A stretch of 64,000 bases of DNA, taken from assembly GCA_945878695.1 (NCBI GenBank), contig CAMDXI010000004.1, positions 1 to 64,000 of the forward strand, read 5' to 3'. The position numbers and the translations under genes are program-made. This DNA comes from Methylotenera oryzisoli. Lineage in GTDB: Bacteria > Pseudomonadota > Gammaproteobacteria > Burkholderiales > Methylophilaceae. The notes beneath the pieces were generated by a model. The model searched no databases. It saw only the letters and a list, made by a program, of their open reading frames with translations, and was not told the origin of the DNA. Every line of letters begins with the position of its first letter. The stretch's first letter is position 1. Shown here piece after piece: positions 30,395-47,893 of the stretch.

Positions 30395-30718
30395 ATGACT
30401 TACGTCGTTACCGAAAATTGTATTCAATGCAAATTTACCGATTGCGTTGATGTTTGCCCGGTTGATTGCTTTGTGGAAGGCCCAAACTTCCTGGCCATCA
30501 ATCCAGACGAGTGCATAGATTGCACCCTGTGCGTGGCGGAATGCCCGGCTGAAGCCATCTTTGCCGAAGACGACGTGCCGGCTGATCAACAAGAGTTCAT
30601 TGCGCTGAACGCCCGTTTAGCGGCCCTTTGGCCAGTCATCACTTCACGCAAAGCTGCCTTGGACGATGCCGATGCCATGAACGGCGTGCCGGGCAAGCGT
30701 GATTTACTGATCGAATAG
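30395..30718 (+). CDS. fdxA: 7Fe ferredoxin FdxA
   Basis: A 107-residue low-potential electron carrier with one [3Fe-4S] and one [4Fe-4S] cluster. The two cysteine groups are [19 protein letters not shown] (residues 8-26) and [18 protein letters not shown] (39-56). The C-terminal extension is typical of the Azotobacter ferredoxin I type. AAGGA lies before the ATG. It has its own terminator and lies 102 bp after cysN. Known FdxA proteins serve general redox tasks; service to sulfite reductase is only a suggestion from the position. Confidence 0.94.
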
Positions 30719-30736
30719 TGCAATAAGACTAAAGAC

Positions 30737-30759
30737 AAAGGAGGCTTAGGCCTCCTTTT
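30737..30759 (+). terminator. Terminator of fdxA
   Basis: AAAGGAGG and CCTCCTTTT form an 8-bp stem around CTTAGG, ending in a short T-run. It lies 18 bp after the fdxA stop and just before the YgjP-like gene. Confidence 0.8.
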
Positions 30760-30787
30760 GCATTTGACCGCGACCCAGCCACTACAC

Positions 30788-31306: not shown

Positions 31307-31348
31307 AATATTCTATATTTGCACTGCAGACTAGCCATTAAAGTATTG

Positions 31349-31354
31349 TAAAAT
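31349..31354 (+). promoter_or_regulatory. Putative -10 box of the 4.5S RNA gene
   Basis: TAAAAT lies about 7 bases before the predicted RNA 5' end, the right distance for a -10. I see no good -35, so confidence is limited. Confidence 0.4.
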
Positions 31355-31360
31355 GCCTAC

Positions 31361-31458
31361 TTGGCGGGCCTCCCCGCATTGTGAAGTAGCCAATCTGGTC
31401 AGGTGCGGAAGCAAGCAGCCACAACTACTGAGCAAGTGCCGGGGGCAAGGCTCGCCTC
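31361..31458 (+). ncRNA. ffs: 4.5S RNA of the signal recognition particle
   Basis: RNA scaffold of SRP, which binds Ffh and sends membrane proteins to the translocon. The conserved domain IV hairpin is clear: GGTCAGGTGCGGAAGCAAGCAG at 31398-31419, with the GGAA tetraloop and the asymmetric loop. The outer arms pair GGCGGGCC (31363-31370) with GGCTCGCC (31449-31456). The length of about 98 bases fits the short bacterial type. As in many proteobacteria, it lies just upstream of dnaX. Confidence 0.93.
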
Positions 31459-31573
31459 TCCTTATTGAGGCAAGCAGGGCATAGCTCAAGGCTTGCCTAA
31501 TAGTTAGATTAAGGTGCTAGCGCGGGTAAACAATTCGATTAAATTAGCCAATGAAAGCAGACGCATTAATCTC

Positions 31574-33355
31574 ATGAGCTACCAAGTACTGGCCCGTAAA
31601 TGGCGCCCTAAATCATTCGAAACCCTGGTTGGACAAGACCATGTGGTGCGGGCCTTAAGCAACGCCTTGGACCAGCAGCGTCTGCATCATGCCTACCTGT
31701 TCACCGGCACCCGTGGCGTAGGCAAAACCACCCTAGCCCGTATCCTAGCCAAATCACTGAACTGCGAAACCGGCATCAGCGCTAAGCCATGCGGCGTGTG
31801 CAGTGCCTGCACGGAAATAGACCGCGGATGCTTTGTTGATTTAATCGAGGTGGATGCCGCCAGCAACACGCAAGTCGACGCCATGCGCGACCTGCTGGAC
31901 AATGCCCAATACGCACCGAGTGCCGGGCGCTTTAAAGTCTACATCATCGATGAAGTGCACATGCTGTCCAAAAGCGCCTTCAATGCCATGCTTAAGACGT
32001 TAGAAGAACCACCCGCACACGTTAAATTCATCCTGGCCACCACCGACCCCCAAAAAGTACCGGTCACGGTCTTGTCGCGTTGCCTGCAATTCAATCTAAG
32101 GCAAATGGCCGGCACCTCGATTATTGATCACCTGCAAAACATATTGACCCAAGAGGCCATCCCTTATCAGGCCAGCGCCTTGCACTTAATTGCCCGTGCG
32201 GCCGATGGCAGCATGCGTGACGCTCTATCTTTAACCGACCAAGCGATTGCTTACGGCGGCCAAAGCGTCAATGAAGCAGAAGTGCGCGACATGCTGGGTG
32301 CAATTGATCAAAGCTATTTATACCAACTGATTAACGCTTTATTGGCAGAAGACGGCCCGGCTTTAATTGCTCAAGCAAAAGCCATGGAACAGCGCAGCCT
32401 ATCGTTTGAAAGCGCTTTAAACGATCTGGCGCAATTGCTGCACCAAATAGCCGTGGCACAAACGGTGCCAGACAGCGTCGCCCACGACTTACCCGAACGT
32501 GCTGTCTTGCTGGATTTTGCGCAAAGAATACCAGCGGCCAGCTTGCAGTTGTATTACCAAATTGCCCTACTGGGCAGACGTGACATAGGCTTAGCACCCG
32601 ACGAATTGGCTGGTTTTAGCATGAGCTTGCTGCGCATGCTGGCGTTCAGCCCTAAAGACCAAGGGCTAAACATCGCCAACCCGCCGACGCTTAAGCCACA
32701 AGCGACTACTCCAGCACCGGTTACAGCCTCAGTTGCAACCGTAGCGTCCGATACCGCCACGGCAACAACCCTTGCGGCAAATGAGACCAGCAAGCCCCAA
32801 GTGCCTCATGTGGAAAGTCCGCAAGCGTCCCACGAGGAAAGTCAGCAAGCGCCTAGCAGCGATGAAATGCCTTTTGAAGATGCAATGCCTAGCGAACCCA
32901 TTCCTATGGCAGAGGCCGCTAACGCAGATGCCGAATACAGCCATAATGAGCCCATGACTAGCGATGCTGGCTTGAACCGGCAATTTAATGGCGATTGGCG
33001 CAACTTGGTGGACAATCTAAAACTGGGTTTAGCGCGCGCCTTATCGCAGCACTGCGAACTGATTAGCTACGATGAAAACAGCATCAGCTTAAGCGTACCG
33101 GAAATGCAAAAACACTTATTGCTGCCTAATTATCAAGAAAAACTCAGCACCGCCATTAACCAGTATTTTGATAAGAAAATCAAACTGTACTTTAGTGTGG
33201 GTGGCACTGGCAACACGCCCGCCCAGCAAATTAGCCAAGAGAAAGCGCAGGCCCAAAGCACGGCTGAAACCGGCATAGAACAAGACGGTTTTGTGCAAGC
33301 CTTGATTAACGATTTTGGTGCACAAATCATCCCCAACAGCATTAAACCGATTTAA
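31574..33355 (+). CDS. dnaX: DNA polymerase III subunits gamma and tau
   Basis: Clamp-loader ATPase of the replicase. The 593-residue protein starts MSYQVLARKWRPKSFETLVG and has the P-loop GTRGVGKTT, the four-cysteine zinc module (C-ETGISAKP-CGVCSAC), IIDEVHMLSKSAFNAMLKTLEEPP and the SRC arginine finger (VLSRCLQF). After about residue 360 come an acidic, proline-rich linker and the tau-specific C-terminal domain that contacts the polymerase. The in-frame ATG at 31514 would add 20 unconserved residues. I see no A-rich slippery heptamer like that of E. coli, so a separate gamma form is not predicted. Confidence 0.96.
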   Translation: MSYQVLARKWRPKSFETLVGQDHVVRALSNALDQQRLHHAYLFTGTRGVGKTTLARILAKSLNCETGISAKPCGVCSACTEIDRGCFVDLIEVDAASNTQVDAMRDLLDNAQYAPSAGRFKVYIIDEVHMLSKSAFNAMLKTLEEPPAHVKFILATTDPQKVPVTVLSRCLQFNLRQMAGTSIIDHLQNILTQEAIPYQASALHLIARAADGSMRDALSLTDQAIAYGGQSVNEAEVRDMLGAIDQSYLYQLINALLAEDGPALIAQAKAMEQRSLSFESALNDLAQLLHQIAVAQTVPDSVAHDLPERAVLLDFAQRIPAASLQLYYQIALLGRRDIGLAPDELAGFSMSLLRMLAFSPKDQGLNIANPPTLKPQATTPAPVTASVATVASDTATATTLAANETSKPQVPHVESPQASHEESQQAPSSDEMPFEDAMPSEPIPMAEAANADAEYSHNEPMTSDAGLNRQFNGDWRNLVDNLKLGLARALSQHCELISYDENSISLSVPEMQKHLLLPNYQEKLSTAINQYFDKKIKLYFSVGGTGNTPAQQISQEKAQAQSTAETGIEQDGFVQALINDFGAQIIPNSIKPI

Positions 33356-33383
33356 TTAAACCTTTAATTTCAGGAGCAGCACT

Positions 33384-33692
33384 ATGATGAAAGGCGGCAT
33401 GGCCAATATGATGAAACAGGCCCAGCAGATGCAAGCAAACATGCAAAAAGCCCAAGCGGAATTGGCTAATATAGACGTGGAAGGCATCGCCAGCAACGGC
33501 TTGGTCAAAGTCACCATGGCTTGCAACAACGTGGTCAAACGCGTCGCCATAGACGACAGCGTCATGGACGACAAGGAAACCTTAGAAGACTTACTGGTCA
33601 TTGCATTAAAAGATGCCACCGCTAAAGCCGAAGCCACCTCCTCCGCGCGCATGGCTAACTACATGCCAGCCGGCATGAAAATGCCTTTCTAA
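33384..33692 (+). CDS. ybaB: YbaB/EbfC nucleoid-associated protein
   Basis: A 102-residue DNA-binding dimer, usually encoded between dnaX and recR. It shows MKQAQQMQANMQKAQAELA, then the beta strands IEGIASNGLVKVTM-like and ALKDATAKAE towards the end. AGGA eight bases before the first ATG supports this start; the next codon is also ATG. It binds DNA broadly and helps shape the nucleoid in studied bacteria. Confidence 0.95.
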   Translation: MMKGGMANMMKQAQQMQANMQKAQAELANIDVEGIASNGLVKVTMACNNVVKRVAIDDSVMDDKETLEDLLVIALKDATAKAEATSSARMANYMPAGMKMPF

Positions 33693-33713
33693 GATTAAGC
33701 CTCTCAGCGCTTA

Positions 33714-34313
33714 ATGAAAAATCCACCGGCCTTAGAACAATTAATCGATAGCCTGCGCTGCCTTCCCGGTGTCGGGCCTAAATCCGCGCAGCGCATGGCT
33801 TATTACTTATTGCAACGCGATAGAAAAGGTGCCAGCGGCTTGGCCACGGCTTTGGATCAGGCCTTGCAGGTGGTAGACCATTGCCAACTCTGCAATACTT
33901 TTAGTGAGCAAGCCATTTGCCCACTGTGCGCTTCAGAGCAACGGGATAGCGATTTACTCTGCGTGGTAGAGATGCCGACTGACTTACTCATGCTGGAAAA
34001 CACCCGCGCCTACACTGGCATGTATTTTGTTTTGATGGGCCGCCTGTCACCGCTAGACGGCGTGGGGCCTAAAGAAATCCATTTGGACAAATTGCTAAAA
34101 CGGGCACAAGACGGCTTGGTGCAAGAAGTGATATTGGCCACCAACTACACGGTTGAGGGCGACGCCACCGCGCATTACATCAGTGAACTGCTCAAAGCGC
34201 GCGGCATTAAAACCAGCCGCATCGCGCGTGGCATGCCCATGGGCGGGGAAATTGAATACGTGGACAGCGGCACCCTCGCCCAAGCCATGATGGAAAGGCG
34301 AAGCATTGCTTAG
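33714..34313 (+). CDS. recR: Recombination mediator RecR
   Basis: Works with RecF and RecO to load RecA on gapped DNA. The 199-residue protein has the N-terminal helix-hairpin-helix ([20 protein letters not shown]), the zinc finger [16 protein letters not shown] at about residues 57-72 and the Toprim domain ([20 protein letters not shown] with [13 protein letters not shown]). The standard length and the dnaX-ybaB-recR order confirm it. It converges on gph with only 7 bp between. Confidence 0.97.
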
Positions 34314-34320
34314 CTTGCGG

Positions 34321-34992
34321 TCAATCGCAACAGCTTAAATTTTCTAGCAAGGCGGTCGGCGTTTCAATTAAAGCATCGGCACCCCACTCACGCGGCCTGT
34401 CGGTCTCGGCCAAATAGCCAAACAAGGCCACCACCGTTTTCATGCCCGCCGCTCGACCGGCTTGCACATCGCGTTCTGCGTCACCCACATAAATGCATTG
34501 TTCCGCTTGGCATTGCATTTGCGCGCATGCCATGAGCAAGGTATCGGGCGCGGGCTTAGGTTGCGGCGCATCGTCACCACAAAGCAAACAGGCCGCCCGT
34601 TCGAACAAGTTGCTGTCACCCAACTTCACCGCCTTGGTTAAATTCACCGAGAATCGCCTGGGCTTATTGGTCACGATGCCCCATTTAATGCCCTTGCTGT
34701 CTAAGGCGGCCAATAAGGCAGCAATACCCGGTAAAAATAGCGGATGTTGGGTATACACCGATTCATACAAATCCAGGTATTCCAAACGCATGGCTTCAAA
34801 TTGGCTGTCGTCCGGATAGATAGCAAAACCCAATTCCAATAAACCGCGTGTGCCGTGCGAGGCCACCGGCCATATCTGCGCGTGCGGCAAGGGCGATTTC
34901 CCATGCCGAGTTAACTGCATATTGAGCGCCAAGCCTAAATCGTGCGCGGTATCGACCAAGGTGCCGTCTAGGTCAAATAAGACCACACTCAT
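34321..34992 (-). CDS. gph: HAD-family phosphoglycolate phosphatase
   Basis: Removes phosphate from 2-phosphoglycolate formed by DNA end repair or oxygenase reactions. The 223-residue HAD hydrolase has motif [15 protein letters not shown], motif II VTNKP, and motif III/IV around PKPAPDTLL and [17 protein letters not shown]. Its ATG overlaps the ubiG stop (ATGA), a common arrangement in Betaproteobacteria. Other phosphate esters are possible substrates. Confidence 0.9.
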
Positions 34993-35726
34993 GCCGGCAA
35001 CACCGTATGCATCAAGTAATTGACTGCCACATCGTCACTCAAGCGGTAAGTTTGTTTAAATGGGTGATAGCTCATGCCACGCAAACTCATGACATCCAGT
35101 TTGGCATGACGCGCCCAACTGGATAACTCAGACGGCTTAATAAATTTGGCGTAATCGTGCGTGCCTTTGGCCAACAAGTTAAGCAGGTATTCCGCGCCAA
35201 CCACGGCCAACAAGTAAGCTTTTGGATTGCGGTTGATGGTGGAAAAGAACACCGAGCCATTGGGTTTAACCAATTTAGCGCAGGCCGCCACGATGGCCGC
35301 CGGGTCTGGTACGTGCTCCAGCATCTCCATGCAAGTCACCACATCAAAACTGGCTGGCTCCAGCGCGGCTAACTGCTCGGCCGAGATGCACTGATAATCC
35401 ACATCCGCGCCGCTTTCTAACTGATGCAATTTAGCCACGTTCAGCGCTTTTTCACCCAGATCAATGCCGGTGACTTTCGCCCCTTTAAAATGCATGGATT
35501 CGGATAAGATGCCGCCGCCGCAACCGACATCCAGCACCCGCTTGCCTTTCAAGTTCACCAAATCGTTTATCCAATTTAAACGCAGTGGATTGATTTCGTG
35601 CAAAGGCTTAAATTCGCTGTTTACATCCCACCATTTGTGCGCGAGTTCAGCAAACTTTTGCAACTCGGCCTGATCGGCATTCAAGCTTACTTCGGCTGTT
35701 TGACTTGCTGTATCTTTACTTGCCAT
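34989..35726 (-). CDS. ubiG: Ubiquinone biosynthesis O-methyltransferase
   Basis: Carries out both O-methylations of the ubiquinone ring using S-adenosylmethionine. The protein (245 residues from the chosen start) has [20 protein letters not shown], the SAM site [15 protein letters not shown], and [16 protein letters not shown]. The frame is open to 35783, but the ATG at 35726 matches the family N-terminus. It overlaps the end of mtaD by 40 bp, which implies coupling. SAH made by UbiG is a substrate type for the mtaD product. Confidence 0.95.
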
Positions 35727-37045
35727 GTGTTCACTATGTCCTTTAATTCCTGAGGCTCTATATTGGCATACACGCCATTGCAATAACGCAATTCGCCGGC
35801 CACCCAGGTGTGGCTAACTTGTTCCCTACCGCAGCAATAAACCAAATGCGAGATGGGATCGTAATAAGGTGCCAGCAATACTTCATCCAAGCGCACGGCC
35901 GTTAAATCGGCGTACTTGCCGACTTCTATCGAGCCTATTTTTTCGTCTAAGCCTATGGCTTTTGCCCCGTTAATGGTGGCCATGGCCAAGGCCTGCATAG
36001 CCGGCAAGGCACTGGCATCAGCGCTTAAGCCTTTGGCTAATAAGGCAGCCAAACGCATTTCGCTGAATATGTCCAAACGGTTATTGCTGGCGGCGCCGTC
36101 TGTGCCCAAGGCCACGTTCACACCTTTAGCCAACAAATCCACCACCGGCGCCATGCCGCTGGCCAGCTTTAAATTCGAGCTGGGGCAATGCACAATATGG
36201 CAACCGTATGCGGCCAACATATCCATCTCGTAATCCAATAAATGCACGCCGTGCGCGGCCAACAAATCCGGTCCGAGCAAGCCCAATTTGGCTAACCTGG
36301 CTAAGGGGCGCATGCCGTATTGGCTTTCGCTACGGCTGATCTCCTCCAAGGTTTCATGCAGGTGAGTGTGCAAGCCTAGCGCCAATTGCTCGGCATAGGT
36401 AATGACTTTTTCTAAGCTGCGATCGGACACCGTATAAGGTGCATGCGGTGCAATCGACGAACTGATCAATGGGTGATTGCGCCAAGAGTCGTGGGCATCA
36501 AAGCCTTTTTGCAAATAATCGTCGGCATCACTGGCGTAGGCCGACGGAAAATCCAATACCAACAGCCCCAGATTAGCTCGCATACCGGCTTGACTGGCCG
36601 CCGCCGCCGTGGCTTGCGGAAAGAAATACATGTCGTTAAAACAAGTGATGCCGCCACTAAGCATTTCGGCACAGGCCAACAAACTGCCGTCTTGCACGAA
36701 TTGCGGTGAGACCAAAGCTTGTTCGGCTGGCCAGATGCGTTGCTCTAGCCAGGTCATTAAAGGCAAGTCGTCGGCCATGCCGCGCATCAAGCTCATGGCG
36801 GCATGCGTGTGCGCATTAATTAAACCGGGCAACAACACTTGCTCGCCCAAACCGATCAGTTCGGTAGCGTGGAAAACCCGTTTGGCAGCGTCACTTGGCA
36901 GCACGGCCACTATCAGCCCCTCATGCACCACCACCGCGTGATCTTCCAGTACGGCAAAATCGGCTGCCATGGTCGCAATCCAGCGGGCTTCAATAATGAG
37001 ATCAACGTCAGCGACTGCAGGGGTTAAGTGTTTGCTATTAGCCAT
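35687..37045 (-). CDS. mtaD: 5-methylthioadenosine/S-adenosylhomocysteine deaminase-like amidohydrolase
   Basis: A 452-residue zinc amidohydrolase of the MtaD/TrzA type, which deaminates methylthioadenosine or S-adenosylhomocysteine to inosine analogues. Metal ligands are visible in [15 protein letters not shown], later [19 protein letters not shown] and [10 protein letters not shown]. It lies upstream of ubiG and overlaps it, so it may recycle SAH made by the methyltransferase. Related enzymes act on guanine or triazines, so the exact substrate is an inference. Confidence 0.85.
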
Positions 37046-37063
37046 AGCACTTATTCTACCAAT

Positions 37064-37087
37064 AAAAAAGCCCCGTCATGACGGGGC
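37064..37087 (-). terminator. Terminator of ompA
   Basis: The perfect 18-bp palindrome GCCCCGTCATGACGGGGC (37070-37087) is followed on the minus strand by TTTTTT. It stops ompA transcription just before the mtaD start at 37045. Confidence 0.9.
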
Positions 37088-37113
37088 CTATACTTAAACA
37101 GTGCAAATTTAGC

Positions 37114-38208
37114 TTAGCGGCAAGGCATTTCGCGTTGTTTTTCGGCGGAAATGACCACGCGGCGGTTAGGCTGCAAGCACTCGATGAGTTTCTTGTTGGG
37201 TTTCTCGCCCTTGCATGCTACCACCGGTTCAGATTCGCCCTTGCCAGAAGCCTGCAACCGTTTAGCCGACACACCTTGTGTCATTAAATAGGCTTTTACT
37301 TGATTGGCGCGACGCTCAGACAATTTTTGATTGTAGCTTTCACTGCCCAACCTATCGGTATGACCGGTTACCAACACCAACTCGACATCGGCATTGGCTT
37401 TAATTTTGCTAGCCACTTCATCCAAGGTCGGCTTGGAACTGTCTTGCAATTTATCCTGATCAAAGGCAAACAACTTTTCAGCCAATATGGTCACGGTTTC
37501 AAAGCTGGGCTTGCAAGCTGGTAATGCAGCAGCAACAGGCGCATCTGGCGCATCTGGCGTAGCAGCAGCTTGCACTGGCGCGGCGGCCGGTGCCGATTCG
37601 GCTACTGGCATGGCGGTTGGTGCAGAAAAGCGGAATACCCCCCCTAAATTAAGCAAGGTGTTGCCCACGGTGCCGCTTGAATCAAACACACCCGTTGATT
37701 TAGCCGTTGAACGCGTCCATTGTTGACGCACATCGGCTTGCACACCAAAGCTGTCGTTGAATAAATACTGGGCACCCAAGCCTATGTTGGCTAACCATGA
37801 GGTTTTGCTTTTATCTTGCACAGCTGGGGTCGTGGAATAATCCAGCTTGTTATTCGCCACACCCAAACCGGTTAGCAAGAAAGGACGGAAACTATCACGA
37901 CCCAACATATAGAGCGCATCCATGCCCAAGCTGGTTTGTTTGTAACGGCCACTACCAGAGGCCAACTCGTCGTTAGCTCGCGCGTAACTGAGGCCAGACT
38001 GTATGTCCCAATGCGGACTGAGCTCCTTGCCCAAGCGTATGGACGCACCGCCGCCATTTTTGGCAGCCAAATCTTTATCGGCATCCATTAAGCTCACACC
38101 CGGCACGGCATACCATGCACCGCTGTAAGCTTCTTCTGCGCTGGCATGGCTAGCCAACAAAGCCAATACTGAAAGCATTGCTGCTATAAGTTGACGATTG
38201 TTTTTCAT
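37114..38208 (-). CDS. ompA: OmpA-family outer membrane protein
   Basis: A 364-residue porin-like protein. A signal peptide (MKNNRQLIAAMLSVLALLASHASA) is followed by an eight-stranded beta-barrel domain of about 170 residues, a proline/alanine-rich linker and a C-terminal OmpA peptidoglycan-binding domain (LVTGHTDRLGSESYNQKLSERRANQVKAYL, then QPNRRVVI). The usual PG-binding Asp and Arg are visible. AAGGAG lies seven bases before the ATG. It has its own terminator and so is probably a strong single-gene unit. Confidence 0.94.
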   Translation of the reverse strand: MKNNRQLIAAMLSVLALLASHASAEEAYSGAWYAVPGVSLMDADKDLAAKNGGGASIRLGKELSPHWDIQSGLSYARANDELASGSGRYKQTSLGMDALYMLGRDSFRPFLLTGLGVANNKLDYSTTPAVQDKSKTSWLANIGLGAQYLFNDSFGVQADVRQQWTRSTAKSTGVFDSSGTVGNTLLNLGGVFRFSAPTAMPVAESAPAAAPVQAAATPDAPDAPVAAALPACKPSFETVTILAEKLFAFDQDKLQDSSKPTLDEVASKIKANADVELVLVTGHTDRLGSESYNQKLSERRANQVKAYLMTQGVSAKRLQASGKGESEPVVACKGEKPNKKLIECLQPNRRVVISAEKQREMPCR

Positions 38209-38291
38209 GATTTACTCCTTAGCTGAAAACGACAGGCCAACAAGCCGCCTAAGCTTTCAACTGCACTATATAGCGCCATATTAACAAAATT

Positions 38292-39008
38292 TCATAGCAT
38301 CTTACGAATTACTTTGATCTTCTCAACATCCAGAGTGGATTGGCGTTGATTAGCGACGCACACCCCACCTCTAAAACCGATGTAGTGTGGCTGCAAGTTT
38401 TTCGCCGCCACCAGGTGGCTATCCCTTAATGAGCCAGCCAAACCCAATAGCAATCCTTGTGCTGCAACCTGCTTGGCAAATTCCCTGGCTTGTTCGGCAC
38501 TGTAGTGGTCAAACAGGCTCAGGCCGTTTTTAATTTGCGTGTCCAGCATCACGCCCAGAAAACCGGCTTGCTTGATGTCGGCAAGCAAACTATCTGGGTA
38601 GGCCGTTTCCGCAAACAGCACCGCAATCAGTTGGTGGCCAGCCTGCGTATAGGGCAGCAGCGCTTGCAGGCAGGCTTGATAATCTTCGCTGGCAAAAAAG
38701 CCAATTTTAATGATGGCCACACCGGTGGTGATGACTTGATCCAGTTGCGGCAGCCACTGCTCAGCTTGCATGGGTAAATCGCCCAAGGTCGCGCTGGTCA
38801 AGCTTTTACGGGCCATGGGCTGCTGGTTTAGGTAGGCGACGATGCTGCGGATGTCCGCCAGCGGCAATGCACCCAGGGCGCCGGCATGCGGATTTTTCAG
38901 GTCTATGATATCGGCGCCCAGCTCTTGCGCCATTTTCGCCTCATCCAGCGTGCAAACGCTGATCAACAATTGCGGGCTAACTCGCGTGCCCAGCAGAGCG
39001 GCATTCAT
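38292..39008 (-). CDS. mfnB: (5-formylfuran-3-yl)methyl phosphate synthase-like protein (DUF556, MfnB type)
   Basis: A 238-residue TIM-barrel protein of the DUF556/MfnB family. The archaeal enzyme makes the furan precursor of methanofuran from two glyceraldehyde-3-phosphates; in methylotrophic bacteria the family goes with methylofuran, cofactor of formyltransferase/hydrolase complex. The pattern ADIIDLKNPHAGALGALP has the lysine at residue 38 expected in the active site, and a second lysine lies in the IIKIGFF strand. It overlaps the DUF447 gene by 4 bp and closes the cofactor gene run. The exact product in this organism is inferred. Confidence 0.85.
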   Translation of the reverse strand: MNAALLGTRVSPQLLISVCTLDEAKMAQELGADIIDLKNPHAGALGALPLADIRSIVAYLNQQPMARKSLTSATLGDLPMQAEQWLPQLDQVITTGVAIIKIGFFASEDYQACLQALLPYTQAGHQLIAVLFAETAYPDSLLADIKQAGFLGVMLDTQIKNGLSLFDHYSAEQAREFAKQVAAQGLLLGLAGSLRDSHLVAAKNLQPHYIGFRGGVCVANQRQSTLDVEKIKVIRKML

Positions 39009-39580
39009 GCTAGATTGCTCCCGTCTTGCGCGGCATAGTGGTTATCTATTTTGTCGGTTAGCCAAGCCCATGCCTGCAGCTCACGCTCCCCCGCAGTTTT
39101 GTCGATGGCAATTTGCAAATACTGCCTTTCTGATTGCACCTTGTCTTTGGGCAACCTAGTTAAACGGCTGACCAGCACCGCCAGTTCAATCACCGCGGCT
39201 TGGGCACGGTTAAAGCCAGCAAAGGCTTGATGCTGCACTCGATGCTGCACCTGCATATGCAAGCACGGTCGCACGGCATCGTCCTCTAGGTGCAACAAGG
39301 TCAATTCCTCATGCGCTAAACAATCTGCCAATCGGAAGCCCAACAGCTGCTCGACTGGCAACAGCGACCAAGCTTGTCGATTGGTCAGCGCCCCAGCAAA
39401 CACCCGCACGTCATCGCACAGGCTAAGCACGGCGCGTTGACTGGTCAAGATATTGCTTAAGGTTAAGGACGGCTTATACGGTGAAATAATGACCGTCTCG
39501 CCCAGCCTTTGTATGCCAAATGGGGCCACGTGAACCTCGCCCTGGTCATTCATGCTGGTGATAATGGTTTCAAATATCAT
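39005..39580 (-). CDS. DUF447 protein, H4MPT/methylofuran gene cluster
   Basis: A 191-residue DUF447 protein, a split-barrel (flavin reductase-like) fold found in methanogens and in methylotrophs that use tetrahydromethanopterin. Family features are FETIITSMNDQGEVHVAPFGIQ at the start and the later RAVLSLCDDVRVFAGAL. The biochemical role is not established. It overlaps both neighbours by 4 bp (DHPS-like gene upstream, mfnB downstream), so the set is probably translated together. Confidence 0.85.
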   Translation of the reverse strand: MIFETIITSMNDQGEVHVAPFGIQRLGETVIISPYKPSLTLSNILTSQRAVLSLCDDVRVFAGALTNRQAWSLLPVEQLLGFRLADCLAHEELTLLHLEDDAVRPCLHMQVQHRVQHQAFAGFNRAQAAVIELAVLVSRLTRLPKDKVQSERQYLQIAIDKTAGERELQAWAWLTDKIDNHYAAQDGSNLA

Positions 39581-41007
39581 GATTTTATTTTTTTCGCGGC
39601 TAATTTCCGTGCACTCATGGCAGCCTCACGATGGGCAATTTTTGCCTCAGGCTGACTCGGCGCTGCGCTCACACCCCAGTCCAAAGCTTGATCTTGCACG
39701 TAACGTTTTTTTAGTTGCCAGGCAATTTGCGCCCGAGCCAACTCCACGCCTAAATAAAAAGCATGCGAGGCATCGTCATGCACGTCTAGCAAAGGGTAAA
39801 GCGCAAACGGATCGGTTGCTTGGTGCAGACCCTCCCTATTGTATACATGCACACCCTGCTCGCTGACCTGGATACGAAAGTTAGGGTCTTTAATCATGCT
39901 GGCAATCTCTTTAATTTCATCCACGCTATAGGTGAACGGCCGCCTGTCATGCAAGCCTAGCAAGCCATTGCTGTAGCCACGCGGCAGCCTGTCATCGGTC
40001 TTGGCGGCATGCATAACACGCCTAGCCAAATCGGCTTCGGCAATGGCATTAACCGCATGGGGACTGACTGAGGTAGCGAGCACGGCATTGATGTTCAATT
40101 CGCTGATGATGCCAAACAGCAAAGTGTTAATGCCGGTGGTGTCGGCATCGGTCAATTCGGTCAGGTTACCTATGCCCATCATGATGGCGATGTCCGGGTA
40201 TTTTTTGCGTAGAGCTTGATAGCGTACGATGGATTGCGTCAAGCCAAAATGGATGGGGTCCAATATGGCGTCGGCGATAAAAGGCTTGCCGGCTTTTTGG
40301 CAAACGTCGATGGCCCGGTACAAAGACGGCAGGCTGTGCGGTTTAGCGGGAATCAATACTGGTGTGGCCGCTACCTCATGGGCTATCCACAGGGTTTTTT
40401 CAGTCAAACTGAGCAAGAAATCGGCACCTGCATGCCCGGCAGTCAGCAAATCGTCCACGCTAAGTGAATCAACGCTGACGGCAAAACCCAGGGCTTTAAG
40501 CGCCTGCACGGCGTCTTTTAAATGCGGGAAAGGCACACCGGGCAAGCAACCCAAATCGATTACGTTCGCCCCTTGTGCTTGATACGCTTGCGCTTTAGCT
40601 ACGATGCCAGCCACACTTAGCATGGGGGCATCGACAATTTCAGCAAAAATCTTCACGCGGTAATCGCTCAAATCTGGGGCCAAGCCCACCTGCCCAAAAT
40701 ACTGCGGTAAATCTTTTAAATCCGCTGGCCCACGTTCAACCGGCACGCCATATTGATCAGCTAACGGTGCGATATCGCCCAAACAAAGACCAGGCACGAT
40801 CACCTTGTCGGCATCGCCGCTGTCTTTAAGTCGCCTGGCAATTAACTGCGGTGTCATGAGTGCGGCCACCGACACGCCTATTTCCACTATGCGGTATTTG
40901 AATTGAGGGGTATTCGGGTCTTGTTTGGATTGCACTTGCGCCAACACCTTAGCCAAGCTTTTTTCAGCCAATTTACCCGTTAAGAAAAGTAAATTTTTCG
41001 CCGCCAT
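39577..41007 (-). CDS. Dihydropteroate synthase-like protein of H4MPT biosynthesis (DUF6513)
   Basis: A 476-residue protein with an N-terminal DUF6513 region (KNLLFLTGKLAEKSLAKVL) and a central TIM-barrel pterin-binding domain like dihydropteroate synthase (ANVIDLGCLPGVPF, VSVDSLSVDDLL, PFIADAILDPIHFG, MMGIGNLTELTDADTTGIN). Relatives occur only in organisms with H4MPT-linked C1 transfer and are thought to join the pterin to the aminobenzoate-derived side chain, replacing folate DHPS. Direct proof of the activity is lacking. A lysine-rich tail ends the protein. It lies 9 bp after the dmrB-like gene. Confidence 0.85.
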   Translation of the reverse strand: MAAKNLLFLTGKLAEKSLAKVLAQVQSKQDPNTPQFKYRIVEIGVSVAALMTPQLIARRLKDSGDADKVIVPGLCLGDIAPLADQYGVPVERGPADLKDLPQYFGQVGLAPDLSDYRVKIFAEIVDAPMLSVAGIVAKAQAYQAQGANVIDLGCLPGVPFPHLKDAVQALKALGFAVSVDSLSVDDLLTAGHAGADFLLSLTEKTLWIAHEVAATPVLIPAKPHSLPSLYRAIDVCQKAGKPFIADAILDPIHFGLTQSIVRYQALRKKYPDIAIMMGIGNLTELTDADTTGINTLLFGIISELNINAVLATSVSPHAVNAIAEADLARRVMHAAKTDDRLPRGYSNGLLGLHDRRPFTYSVDEIKEIASMIKDPNFRIQVSEQGVHVYNREGLHQATDPFALYPLLDVHDDASHAFYLGVELARAQIAWQLKKRYVQDQALDWGVSAAPSQPEAKIAHREAAMSARKLAAKKIKS

Positions 41008-41016
41008 GCTGCTGCA

Positions 41017-41574
41017 CTAAGCGCCCAATGCGTGCAAACGCTGATTAATCGCGGTGGCCAATGCGGGAATGTCTGAAAATACTGAGGTGGCTTCAAATTC
41101 AGCCAACTTAGCGACGTTGGCTAAATCAATCTGCCTAGGGTAAACCTGCACGGTTTTTTGCCGCGGCGCTTCCGATTCAATGGCGCCAGCGCTTTGTTCT
41201 GGCACCGTGTCACAGGCAAAAACCAAGCTCGGCACATGGGTTTTTCCGGCTTGCGCGTAGAGGTTGGTCACCAAGGAATCGGAAAAGCCGTAAGCCATTT
41301 TCGCAATGGTGTTGGAGGTGGCCGGGGCGATCACCAAAGTGTGATAGTGGCCACTGTAGAGCAAACCGACTGGCACACTGCTGGCGGTTTTATCGTAATA
41401 CACCCGATGTTGGCTGGCTTCTAACTTAGCTTGAAAGCCGTACTGTAGAATAATTTCAGCAGCGGCTTTACTTAAAAAAACATCGACCTCCGGCAAGCTA
41501 GCCAGCAGATCCAGCGCCTCCCTTAGGTAATGCCCAGAGCCGGATATGGCCCAAGCTAAGCGCTGCTTTTGCAT
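41017..41574 (-). CDS. dmrB: Dihydromethanopterin reductase-like flavoprotein (DmrB type)
   Basis: A 185-residue flavoprotein of the UbiX/Dfp fold. It has the N-terminal WAISGSGHYLREALDLLA segment and the PATSNTIAKMAYGFSDSLVTNLYAQAGKTHVPSLVFACDT motif that binds FMN. The DmrB enzyme known from Burkholderia reduces dihydromethanopterin to tetrahydromethanopterin, the last step of cofactor synthesis. The gene starts 6 bp after the purA stop and leads the cofactor cluster. The name is given on similarity of pattern and context. Confidence 0.82.
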   Translation of the reverse strand: MQKQRLAWAISGSGHYLREALDLLASLPEVDVFLSKAAAEIILQYGFQAKLEASQHRVYYDKTASSVPVGLLYSGHYHTLVIAPATSNTIAKMAYGFSDSLVTNLYAQAGKTHVPSLVFACDTVPEQSAGAIESEAPRQKTVQVYPRQIDLANVAKLAEFEATSVFSDIPALATAINQRLHALGA

Positions 41575-41580
41575 GAGAAA

Positions 41581-42912
41581 TTAAGAAAAGGGGTGTTCAA
41601 TGACGATGGTTTCATCGCGCTCAGGGCCAGTGGAAACGATGGCCACTGGCACACCACACAAGGCTTCCAAGCGCTTAAGGTAATGCTGCGCATTCTTAGG
41701 CAGCCCTGCCCAGGTTTTAACGCCGAAGGTGTTTTCAGTCCAGCCCGGCACGGTTTCGTAGATAGGCTTACAGCTGGCCACGTCATCCGCACCTATCGGC
41801 AATAGGTCTATCTTCTTGCCGTCCAACTCGTAGCCTATGCAAATCTTCAGCTCCGTGATGCCATCTAACACGTCCAATTTGGTAATGCACAAGCCGGTTA
41901 AACCGTTAATCATGGCAGAGCGACGCAAGGCTGCCGCATCAAACCAACCACAACGACGCTTGCGTTTGGTGACCGTGCCTATCTCCTGCCCTTTAGTCGA
42001 CATTTGGTAGCCAGGCACACCGGCCGTTTCAATGTCTAACTCACTAGGGAATGGGCCGCCACCGACACGGGTGGTGTAGGCTTTGGTGATGCCTAAAACA
42101 TAATGCAGCATATTGGCGCCCACACCGGTACCGGCAGAAGCTTGACCGGCTATGCAATTGCTGGAAGTAACATAGGGGTAAGTACCGTGATCGATGTCTA
42201 ACAAGGTGCCTTGTGCGCCTTCAAACAATAAGTTGTCGCCACGGCCATTGGCCGCATAAAGCTCGGCTGAGATATCGCTGATCATAGGCTTCAAGGCTAG
42301 GGCATGAGCCATACTGGCATCGTATTGCTGATTAAAATCGACCGTTTTAGCATCCAAATAATGGCTTAATACAAAGTTATGGTAGTCCATGACTTCGCGT
42401 AATTTATCTGCAAAACGTTCAGGGTAAAATAAATCGTAAACCCGCAGCGCGCGTCGCGCCACTTTATCCTCGTAGGTAGGGCCTATGCCTTTACCGGTTG
42501 TGCCTATCTTTTTATCGGCACTGCGCTTGGCCTCACGGGCCACGTCTACCGCCACGTGGTGGCTTAAAATAAGCGGGCAACCTGAGCTGACTTTTAAACG
42601 GCCTTTGACTTCCAAACCGTCTTTTTCCAGGGCAGCAATTTCACCTAATAAGTGACCCGCATCCAATACCACGCCATTACCGATGTAGCAGTTAATACCA
42701 GAACGCACGATGCCAGACGGCACTAAATTTAGCTTGTAGACACGTTGTGCATCCCCTTGACCCACCACCAAGGTGTGGCCGGCGTTATGCCCGCCTTGAA
42801 AGCGCACCACGCCTTGGGCGTGATCGGTTAGCCAATCGACTATCTTCCCCTTGCCTTCATCGCCCCACTGCGTACCGATAACAACGACGTTTTTTGCTGC
42901 CTTATTTGCCAT
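41581..42912 (-). CDS. purA: Adenylosuccinate synthetase
   Basis: Condenses IMP and aspartate using GTP to give adenylosuccinate, the first step to AMP. The 443-residue protein has [21 protein letters not shown] at the start, [34 protein letters not shown] and the C-terminal [11 protein letters not shown]-like strand (VSTGPERDE). All the key loops are present. It lies 61 bp after hisZ in the conserved hfq-to-purA order and is followed by the cofactor genes. Confidence 0.98.
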
Positions 42913-42973
42913 AACTTTAACTTTATAATTTTAATTTGAGGGTGTGTGCTTAGTGCTGCGCTTACTAGTTTGC

Positions 42974-44143
42974 TTAACTCTTATCGCTATCGATGGCCAG
43001 CACATGCCAACCGGAGTTGTAATGGGCTAACTTCCTGTCGCAATTTAATTCTTTTACATCGTGGCCTGCGTCTGGCAGGGCTTGGATGACGATGTGCCCC
43101 TCCGCCCTTAATGCAGCTATTTTTTCCTGCAAGCCTGCATCGCCTTGCGCAGGCGCAAAGATGGCTGTCGGCAAGGACGCCGGCGCCAAGGCCGTGACCA
43201 CGCCACGCAAGTCTAAACTAAAGCCGGTTGCCGGCCGTGCTCGACCAAATGCCGAACCCACTTCATCGTAGCGACCGCCTAGTGCCAGTGGCCCCTTGTA
43301 ACCTTGAGCATAGGCAGCGAAGACCATGCCGCTGTGGTAGTGGTACCCGCGTAATTCACTTAAATCAAAACTCAAGCTGACATCCAAATCTGCCAGGGCT
43401 TGGCTAACGGCTGTTAAGCTGGCTAAGGCGGCTTTAATCGCCGGCATGGCAGGCAGCACCTTGGCCGCTTTTTGCAATATCGCTTGATCGCCATTGAGTT
43501 CGGTTAACTGCAACAAGGCTTCACGAGTAGGCTTATCCAAGCTTTGCGTTAAGCTGGCTACGCTAGACTGATCCTTGCTTTGCAGGGCGGCGTACAAATC
43601 TTGTTCCAACTGGGGATCCACGCTGCTGGCCGCAATCAAACTGCCAAAGATATCCACATGACTGAAATCCATGTGCACCTGATTCACGCCCATGGCCTGC
43701 AAAGCTAGTATTAAGAGGCGCTGAATTTCAATGTCGCTGGCCACCCCTGCGTGACCGTATAGCTCGGCACCTAATTGCAAGGGCTCACGGGTCTGCGCTA
43801 AGCCATCGGGTTTAGTGCGCACCACGCTACCGGCATAGCAAAGTCGCGTAATGCCTTGCTGATTGAGCAAGTGCGCATCAATACGGGCAGCTTGTGGCGT
43901 CATGTCAGCCCGCACACCCATCAAACGACCACTTAATTGATCCACCACTTTAAAGGTGGCCAGATCCAAATCGTGACCGGCACCGGTGATCAATGATTCC
44001 ATGTATTCCAGCATAGGCGGAATAACGTATTGGTAACCGTGCACACGAAACAAATCGAGCAAGCAGCGACGCATGGTTTCAATACGCGCCGCCTCAGCCG
44101 GCAGCACGTCTTCTATGTATTCTGGAAGCAGCCAATTACGCAT
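42974..44143 (-). CDS. hisZ: ATP phosphoribosyltransferase regulatory subunit
   Basis: A histidyl-tRNA synthetase-like protein (389 residues) that partners with short HisG to make the first enzyme of histidine synthesis. It begins LLPEYIEDVLPAEAARIETM and shows the class II motifs, FKVVDQLSGRLMGVRADMTPQAARID and later GGRYDEVGSAFGRARPATGFSLDL, without the anticodon-binding domain. The position between DUF2065 and purA is conserved in Betaproteobacteria. Confidence 0.95.
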   Translation of the reverse strand: MRNWLLPEYIEDVLPAEAARIETMRRCLLDLFRVHGYQYVIPPMLEYMESLITGAGHDLDLATFKVVDQLSGRLMGVRADMTPQAARIDAHLLNQQGITRLCYAGSVVRTKPDGLAQTREPLQLGAELYGHAGVASDIEIQRLLILALQAMGVNQVHMDFSHVDIFGSLIAASSVDPQLEQDLYAALQSKDQSSVASLTQSLDKPTREALLQLTELNGDQAILQKAAKVLPAMPAIKAALASLTAVSQALADLDVSLSFDLSELRGYHYHSGMVFAAYAQGYKGPLALGGRYDEVGSAFGRARPATGFSLDLRGVVTALAPASLPTAIFAPAQGDAGLQEKIAALRAEGHIVIQALPDAGHDVKELNCDRKLAHYNSGWHVLAIDSDKS

Positions 44144-44155
44144 TTTTTCTCATCT

Positions 44156-44344
44156 CTAACGGTTAGTTACCCAAATCAATAACAGGCCGGCCAGCACCGA
44201 CAACAAGCCAACAAAACGCAGTTGGCCGTCTTTAAATGCCATCAAACGTTGAAAAGCCTCGCGCCATGATTGCGGTAACAGCAAGGGCAGCAAGCCTTCT
44301 AAAACCAACATCAAGCCCACGGCGGTAAAAAGACTGGCCTGCAC
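44156..44344 (-). CDS. DUF2065 small membrane protein
   Basis: A 62-residue protein with two hydrophobic helices (about 5-25 and 42-59) separated by a short charged loop. The segment LMLVLEGLLPLLLPQSWREAF matches the YjeT/DUF2065 family, whose gene stands between hflC and hisZ or purA in many proteobacteria. The role is unknown; association with HflKC is only a context guess. It lies 12 bp before hisZ. Confidence 0.9.
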   Translation of the reverse strand: MQASLFTAVGLMLVLEGLLPLLLPQSWREAFQRLMAFKDGQLRFVGLLSVLAGLLLIWVTNR

Positions 44345-44373
44345 TTTTAATGCTCTCTAATTAGTTTGCCGAA

Positions 44374-45246
44374 TTACTTTTTATTCGGACTGCGCATGTA
44401 TTTAAAAAAGTCTGAGCTGGGGTCTAAGACCATGACATCGCTCTTGCTTTTAAAGGTGTTTTTATACGCTTCGGTACTGCGGTAGAAAGCGTAAAACTCC
44501 GGATTCTTACCGTAGGCTTGATTATAAATGGCTGCAGCCGTAGCATCGCCCTCACCCTTGGTTTTTTGCGCATCGCGGTAAGCCTCGGCGATGATCACTT
44601 CGCGTTGCTTGTCGGCATCCGCACGAATTTTCTCTGAAGCCGCCGAGCCTTCTGAACGTAACTGATTGGCTAAGCGTTTACGCTCGGCGATCATGCGGTC
44701 AAACACAGACTTGCTAATCTCTTCGGCGTAATCCACGCGTTTCAAACGCACGTCCACCACTTGTATGCCAATTTGCCGCGCTTCCATGTCGGCGCGTTTA
44801 CGCAAATTATCCATGATGGTGCCGCGTTCACCGGCAATCACATCGTGCACGGTGCGCTTACCAAATTCAGCACGTAAACCGGCGTTAACCACCTTAGACA
44901 AGCGATCTTCGGCTGCCGCTTCGCCACCGTCTTTGATAGACACGTAGTATTTGGCTGGGTCTATGATGCGCCATTTAACAAACGAATCGACCATCATGTA
45001 TTTGTTTTCACTGGTGATGAATTTAGCCGGTTGTTCCCAATCCAGCGTCAAAATACGGTTATCGAAGTATTTTAGATTGTCCACGATAGGTAATTTGAAA
45101 TGCATGCCGGGTTGCTTTTTAACCGAAACAATTTCCCCCAAGCGTTGCACAATAACAAATTGAGTTTGATCAACGGTGAATGCCGAACTGGAGAACAAAA
45201 ACAAGGCGGCCACTAGGCCTACTAGTACATTAGTTGAATTTTTCAT
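44374..45246 (-). CDS. hflC: HflC, SPFH-family membrane protein
   Basis: Forms with HflK a large cage around the FtsH protease and modulates its activity. The 290-residue protein has one N-terminal membrane helix (VLVGLVAALFLFSSSAFTV) and a periplasmic SPFH domain with VIVQRLGEIVSVKKQPGMHFKLP and ERKRLANQLRSEGSAASEKI, and a helix-rich tail. It follows hflK by 9 bp. Confidence 0.96.
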   Translation of the reverse strand: MKNSTNVLVGLVAALFLFSSSAFTVDQTQFVIVQRLGEIVSVKKQPGMHFKLPIVDNLKYFDNRILTLDWEQPAKFITSENKYMMVDSFVKWRIIDPAKYYVSIKDGGEAAAEDRLSKVVNAGLRAEFGKRTVHDVIAGERGTIMDNLRKRADMEARQIGIQVVDVRLKRVDYAEEISKSVFDRMIAERKRLANQLRSEGSAASEKIRADADKQREVIIAEAYRDAQKTKGEGDATAAAIYNQAYGKNPEFYAFYRSTEAYKNTFKSKSDVMVLDPSSDFFKYMRSPNKK

Positions 45247-45255
45247 GGCCGGCTC

Positions 45256-46452
45256 CTACCTGCTTTCTCTGTCGCGACTGCGAAAAGCGTCGCGTGTACG
45301 ATCGGTCGTTAGCGCCGGCTCTGCCGCCGCCGCTTGTGGATTAAGTGATTGCAAGGATTGTGATTTTTGCACGGCCGCTTCTTCAGTTGCATTAATCAAT
45401 TTATCCAATGGCAAATACAGCATGCTGTTGCCACCTTTTTGATCGACCACCACTTTGCTCACGCTAGACAAGATTTGTTCTTGGGCCTCTAAAAACAAAC
45501 GTTGCCGTGTGACTTCCGGAGCTTTTTTATACTGCACTAGAATTTGCTCAAAGCGGCTGGCATTACCCTTGGCCTCGCTTTCTATCTTCAATTTGTAACC
45601 GGCTGCTTCAGCCAATAACCTGGATGCGGTTCCGCGTGCCTTAGGAATGATGTCGTTGGCGTAGGCCTGACCTTCATTGATCTGCCTTTGGTTGTCTTGG
45701 TTGGCACGGTTAACGTCTTCGAAGGCTTCTTGCACTTGCTCAGGCGGTTGCGCACTTTGCAAAGACACGCTGGTGATGTTTACACCGGTTTTGTAGCTGT
45801 CCAAAATAATCTGCATGCGCTCAGAGGTATCCGCCAAGCCTTTTTGCAACAAGTCATCCAACTTACTTTTACCCACCACTTCACGAATGGCGGTTTCAGC
45901 GGCGGACATTACCGCCTCGTCGGTTGAGCGATTGTTAAACAAATAATCTTTAGCATTCTTGAGGTTGTATTGCACGGCAAATTGCAAATCGATGATGTTT
46001 TCATCCTCGGTTAGCATCAAGGCCTCTTTAGGTTGCTTGACTTTACTGCCACTGCCTTCACCTGCGCTGCGGTAGCCAACTTCCAATCGACGTACCTGCT
46101 CCATGTTGACCACATCAGCCGATTCAAACGGATAAGGTAAATGCCAGCGCGGGCCCGGCTCAGCGGTTTCCACAAAATTACCAAAGCGCTTTACCACGCC
46201 CAATGAACCTTGATCAACGATATAGAACCCGGTGCCCAACCAGACTAAAACCACAACGGCCACGATGGGCAACACCGGCATGGCCGGCATGGCATCGCCG
46301 CCATTGCTTGACTTGTTAGGCTGACGGTTAGGCTGATTGCCACCGCCCTTACCAAATAAATTATTAATTTTTCGGCTTAAATCGCGCATTACTTGGTCCA
46401 AATCGGGCGGACCATCGTTATTACCCTGTAACCAGCCAGGAAATTTAATCAT
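45256..46452 (-). CDS. hflK: HflK, SPFH-family membrane protein
   Basis: Partner of HflC. The 398-residue protein has a glycine/asparagine-rich cytosolic start (about 1-55), one membrane helix (VLPIVAVVVLVWLGTGFYIV), then the SPFH domain (DQGSLGVVKRFGNFVETAEPGPRWHLPYP) and a long coiled-coil region with AYANDIIPKARGTASRLLAEA. It ends in a glutamine/alanine and arginine-rich tail. It lies 36 bp after hflX. Confidence 0.96.
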   Translation of the reverse strand: MIKFPGWLQGNNDGPPDLDQVMRDLSRKINNLFGKGGGNQPNRQPNKSSNGGDAMPAMPVLPIVAVVVLVWLGTGFYIVDQGSLGVVKRFGNFVETAEPGPRWHLPYPFESADVVNMEQVRRLEVGYRSAGEGSGSKVKQPKEALMLTEDENIIDLQFAVQYNLKNAKDYLFNNRSTDEAVMSAAETAIREVVGKSKLDDLLQKGLADTSERMQIILDSYKTGVNITSVSLQSAQPPEQVQEAFEDVNRANQDNQRQINEGQAYANDIIPKARGTASRLLAEAAGYKLKIESEAKGNASRFEQILVQYKKAPEVTRQRLFLEAQEQILSSVSKVVVDQKGGNSMLYLPLDKLINATEEAAVQKSQSLQSLNPQAAAAEPALTTDRTRDAFRSRDRESR

Positions 46453-46488: not shown

Positions 46489-47625
46489 TTAAGCATACGC
46501 ACTTTCTTCCGTACTTAATTTTTGCAAATATTGACCATGTTCAGCTATGGCCATTCTTAACAAATCCATTCCTTCGCCGGTTTTAGCAGAAACGTGTAGG
46601 CTGCTAATTCTACCATATTCATCCCGGCTAATTGCAGGCATCAAGCCCACTCGATCTATCTGATTGTGCACTAAAATTTGCGGTACATTAGCCGCCCCAA
46701 TCTCAGCCAAGACCTTATTCACCTGGGCAATTTGTTCATCACGATTGGTGCTGGCGGTATCGACGATGTGCAAGAGCAGATCGGCCTGCACCGCCTCTTC
46801 CAGTGTAGCGCCGAAGGCTTCCACCAAAGCATGCGGCAAATGTTTAATAAAGCCCACGGTATCGGACAACACCACCGAACCGCAATCGGCTATGTAAATT
46901 TTATGCGTGGTGGTATCCAAGGTGGCAAACAACTGATCTGCCACGTAAATGTCGGCTTTGGTTAAGCGATTAAACACGGTGGATTTACCGGCATTGGTGT
47001 AACCAACCAAGGACACCGTCATAACATTGGAACGTTTGCGCGCCCGTCTTTGCATGCCTCGCTGGGCTTTGAGCTTTAGCAATTTCTCACGCAATTGTTT
47101 AACCCGCACGCGCAGCATGCGCCTGTCTAGTTCCAACTGCGTTTCACCAGGGCCACCACGCACGCCTATGCCGCCTTTTTGCCGTTCCAAATGGGTCCAA
47201 CCTCGCACCAAGCGGGTAGATAAATGCTCCAACTGAGCCAACTCCACTTGCAATTTACCTTCGTGGCTTTGTGCGCGCTGACTGAATATATCTAAAATTA
47301 AGCCGGTTCTATCCACCACCCGCGCTTGCAATAGCCGCTCTAAATTTCGCTGCTGGGATGGCGACAGATCATGATTAAACACCGCAATATTGGCATCACT
47401 GGCTTGCATCATTTGCGCCAGTTCATCGGCTTTGCCACTGCCTATAAAGTGCTTGGCATCAGGCGCAGCGCGCTTGGCTTCAACGGTGCCGCGTATGGCC
47501 AAACCGGCCGTTAAACTTAACTGCCTGAGTTCGTGCAAACTTTCTTGGTAATCGTGATCACCGAAGTCCACGCTCACCATAATGGCGGCATCAAAGCCGC
47601 CAGGTCGCTCAAACAAATCTTTCAA
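46489..47625 (-). CDS. hflX: Ribosome-splitting GTPase HflX
   Basis: Splits stalled 70S ribosomes after heat or antibiotic stress. The 378-residue protein has the HflX domain (FIGSGKADELAQMM and FNHDLSPSQQRNLE), a helical linker with GVRGGPGETQLELDRRMLR, and the G domain with LVGYTNAGKSTVFNRL (G1), DTVGFIKHLPH (G3) and VHNQID (G4). The length is somewhat shorter than that of E. coli HflX (426) because the C-terminal part is reduced. It starts 31 bp after hfq. Confidence 0.96.
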   Translation of the reverse strand: MKDLFERPGGFDAAIMVSVDFGDHDYQESLHELRQLSLTAGLAIRGTVEAKRAAPDAKHFIGSGKADELAQMMQASDANIAVFNHDLSPSQQRNLERLLQARVVDRTGLILDIFSQRAQSHEGKLQVELAQLEHLSTRLVRGWTHLERQKGGIGVRGGPGETQLELDRRMLRVRVKQLREKLLKLKAQRGMQRRARKRSNVMTVSLVGYTNAGKSTVFNRLTKADIYVADQLFATLDTTTHKIYIADCGSVVLSDTVGFIKHLPHALVEAFGATLEEAVQADLLLHIVDTASTNRDEQIAQVNKVLAEIGAANVPQILVHNQIDRVGLMPAISRDEYGRISSLHVSAKTGEGMDLLRMAIAEHGQYLQKLSTEESAYA

Positions 47626-47656: not shown

Positions 47657-47893
47657 TTATTCGGCATCTTCAGTAGAACTAAATGCCACCATGCGTGCTG
47701 GCACGATGGTTGAAATGGCATGCTTGTAAACCATTTGGGTGACGGTATTTTTGAGCAAAATCACGTATTGATCGAACGAATCAACCTGACCTTGTAATTT
47801 AATGCCGTTGACGAGATAGATAGATACAGCGACGTGTTCTTTACGTAAGGCGTTAAGAAACGGGTCTTGTAACATTTGTCCTTTTTGATTCAT
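47657..47893 (-). CDS. hfq: RNA chaperone Hfq
   Basis: Hexameric Sm-like protein that pairs small RNAs with mRNAs. The 78-residue protein has the Sm1 motif ([41 protein letters not shown]) and the Sm2 strand [12 protein letters not shown]. The C-terminal tail is short ([10 protein letters not shown]), as usual in Betaproteobacteria. GGAG lies seven bases before the ATG. It begins the long minus-strand run. Confidence 0.98.

Follow-up and report, generated by a model that had tools for sequence, protein, structure and literature searches.

Introduction

The closest described counterparts of the locus reported here are the gene islands for the one-carbon (C1) cofactors tetrahydromethanopterin (H4MPT) and methylofuran. 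In the Methylosinus trichosporium island, the order is given in the passages of PMC3615186 as orf19-orf20-afpA-orf21-orf22, while those of PMC8141765 equate Orf22, Orf21 and Orf9 with MfnB, MfnE and MfnF, respectively. AfpA is said to restore C1 growth of an M. extorquens dmrA knockout (PMC6193120), and absence of the H4MPT pathway has been published for Ca. Methylopumilus and OM43 (PMC6794327). Here, we analyze a 64,000-nucleotide stretch of Methylotenera oryzisoli DNA (contig CAMDXI010000004.1, hereafter the window), in which a four-gene putative cofactor cassette, dmrB-DUF6513-DUF447-mfnB, directly follows purA, the last gene of a housekeeping run that starts with hfq.

H4MPT gene islands are already known, as is the hfq-purA run, which is order-wide. 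The family-wide join of the two, its near-overlap in deep-branching genera and its later breakage are apparently undescribed: no description of a purA-dmrB join was found in a literature search covering titles, the first part of abstracts and individual passages, a scope beyond which the 2005 paper on H4MPT gene islands lies. We conclude that the junction is a real, old and fairly ordinary operon extension.

Results

The purA-dmrB junction in the window

The initial annotation had placed a dmrB-like gene 6 bp past the purA stop codon, with the rest of the cassette following at gaps of 9, -4 and -4 bp and seven conserved same-strand genes (hfq, hflX, hflK, hflC, DUF2065, hisZ and purA) ahead of it. 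The open reading frame (ORF) coordinates and gaps, including the 6 bp between the purA stop and the dmrB ATG, were reproduced exactly, and family scans upheld the identities of the seven upstream genes (Table 1). All genes concerned lie on the minus strand; the gaps from hfq to purA are, in order, 31, 36, 9, 29, 12 and 61 bp, the one between hisZ and purA being the largest. By strand, short gaps and a terminator scan of positions 30000-46000, the genes from hfq to mfnB have the layout of a single operon: no minus-strand terminator-like site was found in the gaps from hflK to mfnB, the hfq-hflX and hflX-hflK gaps lying outside the scanned interval. Among 13 genes scored, dmrB showed the weakest pairing with the anti-Shine-Dalgarno sequence (+1.9 kcal/mol), as would be expected if its translation is coupled to that of purA. 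Since the junction measures 6 bp, dmrB has no Shine-Dalgarno-like site and no clear terminator is met before the end of the downstream ompA-like gene, read-through from purA and partial translational coupling are likely.

Distribution of the junction in Methylophilaceae

In a sample of 150 Methylophilaceae genomes, dmrB was called at E 1e-30 or better in 108, and every one of these carries purA upstream of it, in the same orientation and on the same contig; the adjacency is thus not due to chance. Measured from match to match, stop codon included, the purA-dmrB distance had a median of 23.5 bp and a maximum of 1398 bp. It was at most 40 bp in 80 genomes, 41-100 bp in 4, 101-200 bp in 17, 201-400 bp in 3 and above 400 bp in 4 (at most 200 bp in 101/108); three of the four longest-distance loci were opened, and all three hold inserted ORFs. 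Genus g39 is counted in these distances but has no locus among the exact junctions described below, dmrB of G080 is split into two pieces over two contigs, and purA of L070 was recovered as two tblastn pieces. The junction was also present in 12 of 12 genus-level genomes outside the 150. It was therefore kept in 120/120 dmrB carriers, the window genome included, and a loss in all close relatives was not seen. A scan of titled records, which overlaps the 150-genome sample, showed purA upstream of dmrB within ~1.4 kb in 80/80 of the best 80 of 298 loci.

No dmrB was found in 42 family genomes. Of these, 38 are members of the two streamlined genera g29 and g31, and 34 of those 38 have purA. In the other four, G079, G108, G135 and G154 (48-77% complete), purA was not detected either, and their assemblies probably lack the region. 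Two genus genomes, G004 and G008, gave a strong match neither to dmrB nor to purA.

The two blocks outside the family

An order-level sample of 300 genomes contained 28 with dmrB, 5 of them in the family. At the other 23 loci, purA was never found near dmrB within the stretches compared (for L148, a stretch of 3.9 kb, this covers ~1.3 kb upstream), and the complete four-gene order dmrB-DUF6513-DUF447-mfnB was present in 19 of the 23. The hfq-to-purA run was present in the same order in 19/19 order-level purA loci, with DUF2065 undetected in five, and dmrB stood behind purA in none of the 19. In a phylum sample, dmrB occurred in 11 of 398 genomes; for the seven outside the order, no purA was found within 1.4-1.5 kb upstream. 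The two blocks are thus separate elsewhere and joined in Methylophilaceae.

The order-level outgroup cassettes adjoin other genes, such as dnaE upstream of dmrB in family f2 (read from sequence without a family scan). A family of 648-712 aa proteins, whose printed members read as σ54-type regulators, is encoded upstream of dmrB in nine outgroup loci (L141, L143, L146, L147, L149, on the opposite strand, L151, L154, L160 and L180); it may regulate the cassette and was not seen at that place in Methylophilaceae. In L148, L149, L157 and L158, a FolB-like (dihydroneopterin aldolase-like) gene, judged from two members read, is divergent from dmrB on the opposite strand and may serve pterin synthesis.

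Ancestry and loss of the cassette

Two quick trees without bootstraps were built: a housekeeping tree from HflX, HflC, HisZ and PurA (76 rows) and a cassette tree (73 rows). The family formed one clade at 100 on the cassette tree. On account of this single clade and of the ordinary G+C of the cassette (0.526; hfq-purA has 0.497 and the whole window 0.510), we rejected a recent horizontal arrival.

On the housekeeping tree, g29 and g31 were nested deep within the family (41-row clade at 99), on a tree that has long branches in several outgroups and in two g31 rows joining L097, and an unusual letter make-up in g29/g31 rows. Because of this nesting, g29 and g31 most likely lost the cassette. All six of their loci compared (L093-L098) lack everything from dmrB to ompA, and only 21-38 bp separate purA from mtaD. 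MCH was absent in 38/38 g29/g31 genomes and present in 103 of the 108 genomes with dmrB. Two loci look intermediate: L075 (g20) and L089 (g36) keep the cassette, but neither an ompA match nor a terminator-like hairpin was found there, and their mfnB-mtaD distances are 89 and 102 bp.

For 16 genera outside the clade g1/g23/g25/g29/g31/g35/g38, represented by one locus each, the exact junction measured from -4 to 29 bp. It was at most 10 bp in 14 of the 16, and in three genera the stop and start codons overlap (-4, -1 and -1); the starts were picked automatically, and gaps may be off by some codons. Since these deep-branching genera all have short junctions, the tight junction is probably ancestral.

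Terminators and promoters

One scanner for terminator-like hairpins was applied to all compared loci. Its background was 4.1% in shuffles (single-base, not dinucleotide) of the purA-dmrB junctions of 104 bp or more and 3.2% of 348 intragenic controls. Among 44 relatives with ompA and mtaD, all 44 had a hairpin 3' of ompA, before mtaD. The three gaps inside the cassette contained none (0/53, 0/51 and 0/51, two outgroup loci included), and three further gaps one at most (mfnB-ompA 1/45, hisZ-purA 1/56 and, in cassette-less loci, purA-mtaD 0/6).

A σ70 scan retrieved 6 sites, against 15.9 in shuffled DNA, and was not used as promoter evidence. A promoter hidden in the 3' end of purA found no support in synonymous-codon conservation: among 31 tight-junction genomes, there was no excess, the last window ranking 224 out of 429. 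In the 17 long-gap genomes, synonymous conservation ~15 codons before the purA end was among the highest (1.44). This rise is not tied to dmrB, since six cassette-less genomes show 1.67.

Identities of the cassette proteins

At E <=0.01, the dmrB protein matched only one protein in the Protein Data Bank (PDB), AfpA, a putative dihydromethanopterin reductase (3wis/4mwg, E 7.4e-48, residues 4-183). Under the NCBIfam models, the protein scored 106.4 for AfpA (TIGR02699, cut-off 192.45) and 92.9 for dihydromethanopterin reductase (TIGR02700, cut-off 251.35), and we therefore call it DmrB-like. By their names (archaeo_AfpA, flavo_MJ0208), these models look archaeal, and missing them does not exclude a bacterial branch. 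The proposed name rests on the solved relative AfpA and on the complementation described in the passages of PMC6193120; reduction of dihydromethanopterin dependent on flavin mononucleotide is predicted.

The DUF6513 protein scored 181.8 bits with the dihydropteroate-synthase-like (DHPS-like) model TIGR00284, below the cut-off of 256.65, and had no PDB match at E 0.1. The DUF447 protein matched the solved structure 3b5m of an uncharacterised relative (E 7.8e-16). MfnB is related to MJ1099 (4rc1/4u9p, E 2.3e-21), its best NCBIfam score (217.4) being under the cut-offs of 286-341 bits. The window genome (1.39 Mb, 86% complete) contains MCH (G000:C9) and Fae (G000:C32), both off the window contig; therefore, H4MPT-pathway enzymes are encoded.

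Table 1. Coordinates of the purA-dmrB locus in the window, in the direction of transcription
Feature	Coordinates	Strand	Basis or remark
hfq (RNA chaperone), start of the housekeeping run	47657..47893	-	NF001602, 136.7 bits (cut-off 95)
hflX GTPase, listed start TTG	46489..47625	-	TIGR03156, 475.9 bits
hflK	45256..46452	-	PF01145 and PF12221
hflC	44374..45246	-	PF01145
DUF2065 small protein	44156..44344	-	PF09838, 75.1 bits
hisZ, ATP phosphoribosyltransferase regulatory subunit	42974..44143	-	NF008935, 541.3 bits
purA, adenylosuccinate synthetase	41581..42912	-	NF002223, 628.5 bits
purA-dmrB junction, 6 bp (TAA TTTCTC ATG)	41575..41580	-	too short for a terminator
dmrB/afpA, archaeal-type flavoprotein, proposed dihydromethanopterin reductase	41017..41574	-	PF02441
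DUF6513/DHPS-like protein	39577..41007	-	PF20123, 110.6 bits
DUF447 protein	39005..39580	-	PF04289 and PF20766
mfnB (Orf22), 4-(hydroxymethyl)-2-furancarboxaldehyde-phosphate (4-HFC-P) synthase, methylofuran ring	38292..39008	-	PF04476, 212.9 bits (cut-off 22.4)
ompA-like gene, 83 bp 3' of mfnB, last before the conserved terminator	37114..38208	-	NF008071, E 6.6e-35, under cut-off; synteny
Intrinsic terminator 3' of ompA	37068..37089	-	9-bp stem with 6 GC pairs, then TTTTATTGGT

Discussion

We consider it quite probable that the cassette and the housekeeping run were joined in a single ancient event, were inherited vertically and are read through in the window organism. The join would have occurred once, no later than in the last ancestor shared by the Methylophilaceae sampled, at the 3' end of the hfq-to-purA run, and vertical inheritance would have carried it into the present lineages. 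In the window organism, polymerase likely reads from purA into the cassette, as judged from the sequence, and translation of dmrB is probably coupled in part to purA termination. Such read-through would give a steady, growth-linked and non-inducible supply of C1 cofactors, which would suit methylotrophs with a constant need. Streamlined relatives without the H4MPT pathway would then have lost the block, with purA and mtaD becoming neighbors again. In a few lineages, extra DNA or a terminator-like hairpin would have entered the junction, probably re-separating the units. According to the passages of PMC3728764, 20 H4MPT-pathway genes were not strongly influenced by conditions in RNA-seq of three Methylophilaceae; this fits a steady supply, the junction itself lying outside the scope of that study. 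Four of its tags, mmol_0896-0899, are probably the cassette: G116, presumably M. mobilis JLW8, has its cassette at a matching relative position on a 2.55-Mb contig.

A number of observations weigh against this explanation, above all as a rule for the family. At least 104 bp separate purA from dmrB in 17 of the 53 exact junctions, and a terminator-like hairpin lies between the two genes in 8 of 52 relatives. All eight hairpins are found among the 17 long junctions, where 0.7 would be expected from shuffles. They belong to g25 (L080, L101, L102 and L103) and g1 (L059, L104, L105 and L106), stand out most in L080, L101 and L103, where a T run follows a GC-rich stem, and are weak in L059 (-8.6 kcal/mol) and in L102, whose T run is interrupted; in these lineages, purA and the cassette have probably been re-separated. 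Since gene order is kept at such junctions, its persistence does not depend on co-transcription. Likewise, the order mtaD-ubiG-gph is conserved beyond the ompA terminator, and synteny alone is therefore weak evidence for a shared transcript. Weak ribosome-binding sites are also found in DUF447 (0.1) and purA (-0.4), internal promoters may exist in or before purA, and MCH was not detected in 5 of the 108 genomes with dmrB (G051, G078, G083, G102 and G178; 74-85% complete). The initial annotation had put the C1 cofactor and housekeeping genes on one transcript. For the window, this is favored by tight same-strand linkage, a junction too short for a terminator, the weak dmrB ribosome site and conservation in 120/120 carriers; as a family rule, it is doubtful for the lineages with the eight hairpins.

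Related-looking ORFs of 212-213 aa are inserted between purA and dmrB in L067, which has a second one of 196 aa, and in L109; L102 has an opposite-strand ORF of 382 aa, and L062 has an ORF of 74 aa. The 130-bp junction of L108, read by eye, contains an inverted-repeat sequence that resembles dispersed intergenic repeats.

The same gene order could reflect synteny without functional coupling, the cassette having landed by chance behind purA in a 15-gene stretch that is rarely rearranged and being transcribed from a promoter of its own, for example one inside purA. The conserved order from hfq to gph, kept even across the ompA hairpin present in all 44 loci, agrees with this, as do the persistence of the order where junctions are longer (8/17 bearing hairpins) and the position of order-level outgroup cassettes behind other genes. 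Yet this would leave unexplained why 14 of 16 deep genera have junctions of at most 10 bp, start/stop overlaps included, why the purA 3' end shows no raised synonymous conservation and thus nothing to suggest that a conserved promoter is embedded there, and why dmrB has the weakest anti-Shine-Dalgarno pairing of the 13 genes; we regard it as unlikely, though deserving real weight. The initial annotation had further called the link chemically sensible, since guanosine triphosphate (GTP) starts the pterin and is used by PurA. On this reading, selection would have joined purA and pterin genes through their common GTP draw and placed C1 cofactors under purine-linked control. The adjacency is real and probably old, but PurA consumes GTP and does not supply it, purA is part of the same run in 19/19 order-level loci without dmrB behind it, no independent join was seen in the 30 dmrB loci outside the family, and none of the four cassette genes is, by family name, the GTP-using first pterin step. 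We therefore consider this link highly improbable.

A stronger version of the preferred single join with read-through holds that the near-overlapping ancestral junction was selected for translational coupling, so that purA translation (growth rate or purine demand) and not C1 substrate meters the cofactors, and that the hairpin lineages re-evolved separate control. This version as a whole seems improbable to us; if true, tight and hairpin lineages would be natural pairs of constitutive and regulated cofactor supply. Read-through from a housekeeping run in itself offers a plain possible reason for steady C1-cofactor expression in these methylotrophs, and disruption of purA or hisZ may be polar on C1 metabolism. 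The locus also provides an evolutionary series at one place: an ancestral tight join, later separation by inserts or hairpins, and block loss in streamlined genera.

Comparison with known systems

The absence of MCH in g29 and g31 agrees with that published for Ca. Methylopumilus and OM43, while the rejoining of purA to mtaD was not found in the passages of that text (PMC6794327). Like the order-wide hfq-hflX-hflK-hflC-(DUF2065)-hisZ-purA run, the window run has the same genes in the same order. It differs from the order outgroups in what follows: up to 9 of 19 have an rnr-like gene next to or soon after purA, and four then have an rlmB-like gene (names read from sequence without a family scan), whereas the window has the cassette. 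No tblastn hit to rnr or rlmB at E 1e-15 was obtained in the window or 60 loci, in a search without a positive control. Compared with the M. trichosporium H4MPT-methylofuran island, as far as the passages of its description go, the window likewise has afpA/dmrB and orf22 (MfnB) in one compact island; it differs in that no window cassette gene matches orf21 (MfnE), and in that the Methylophilaceae island is attached to purA.

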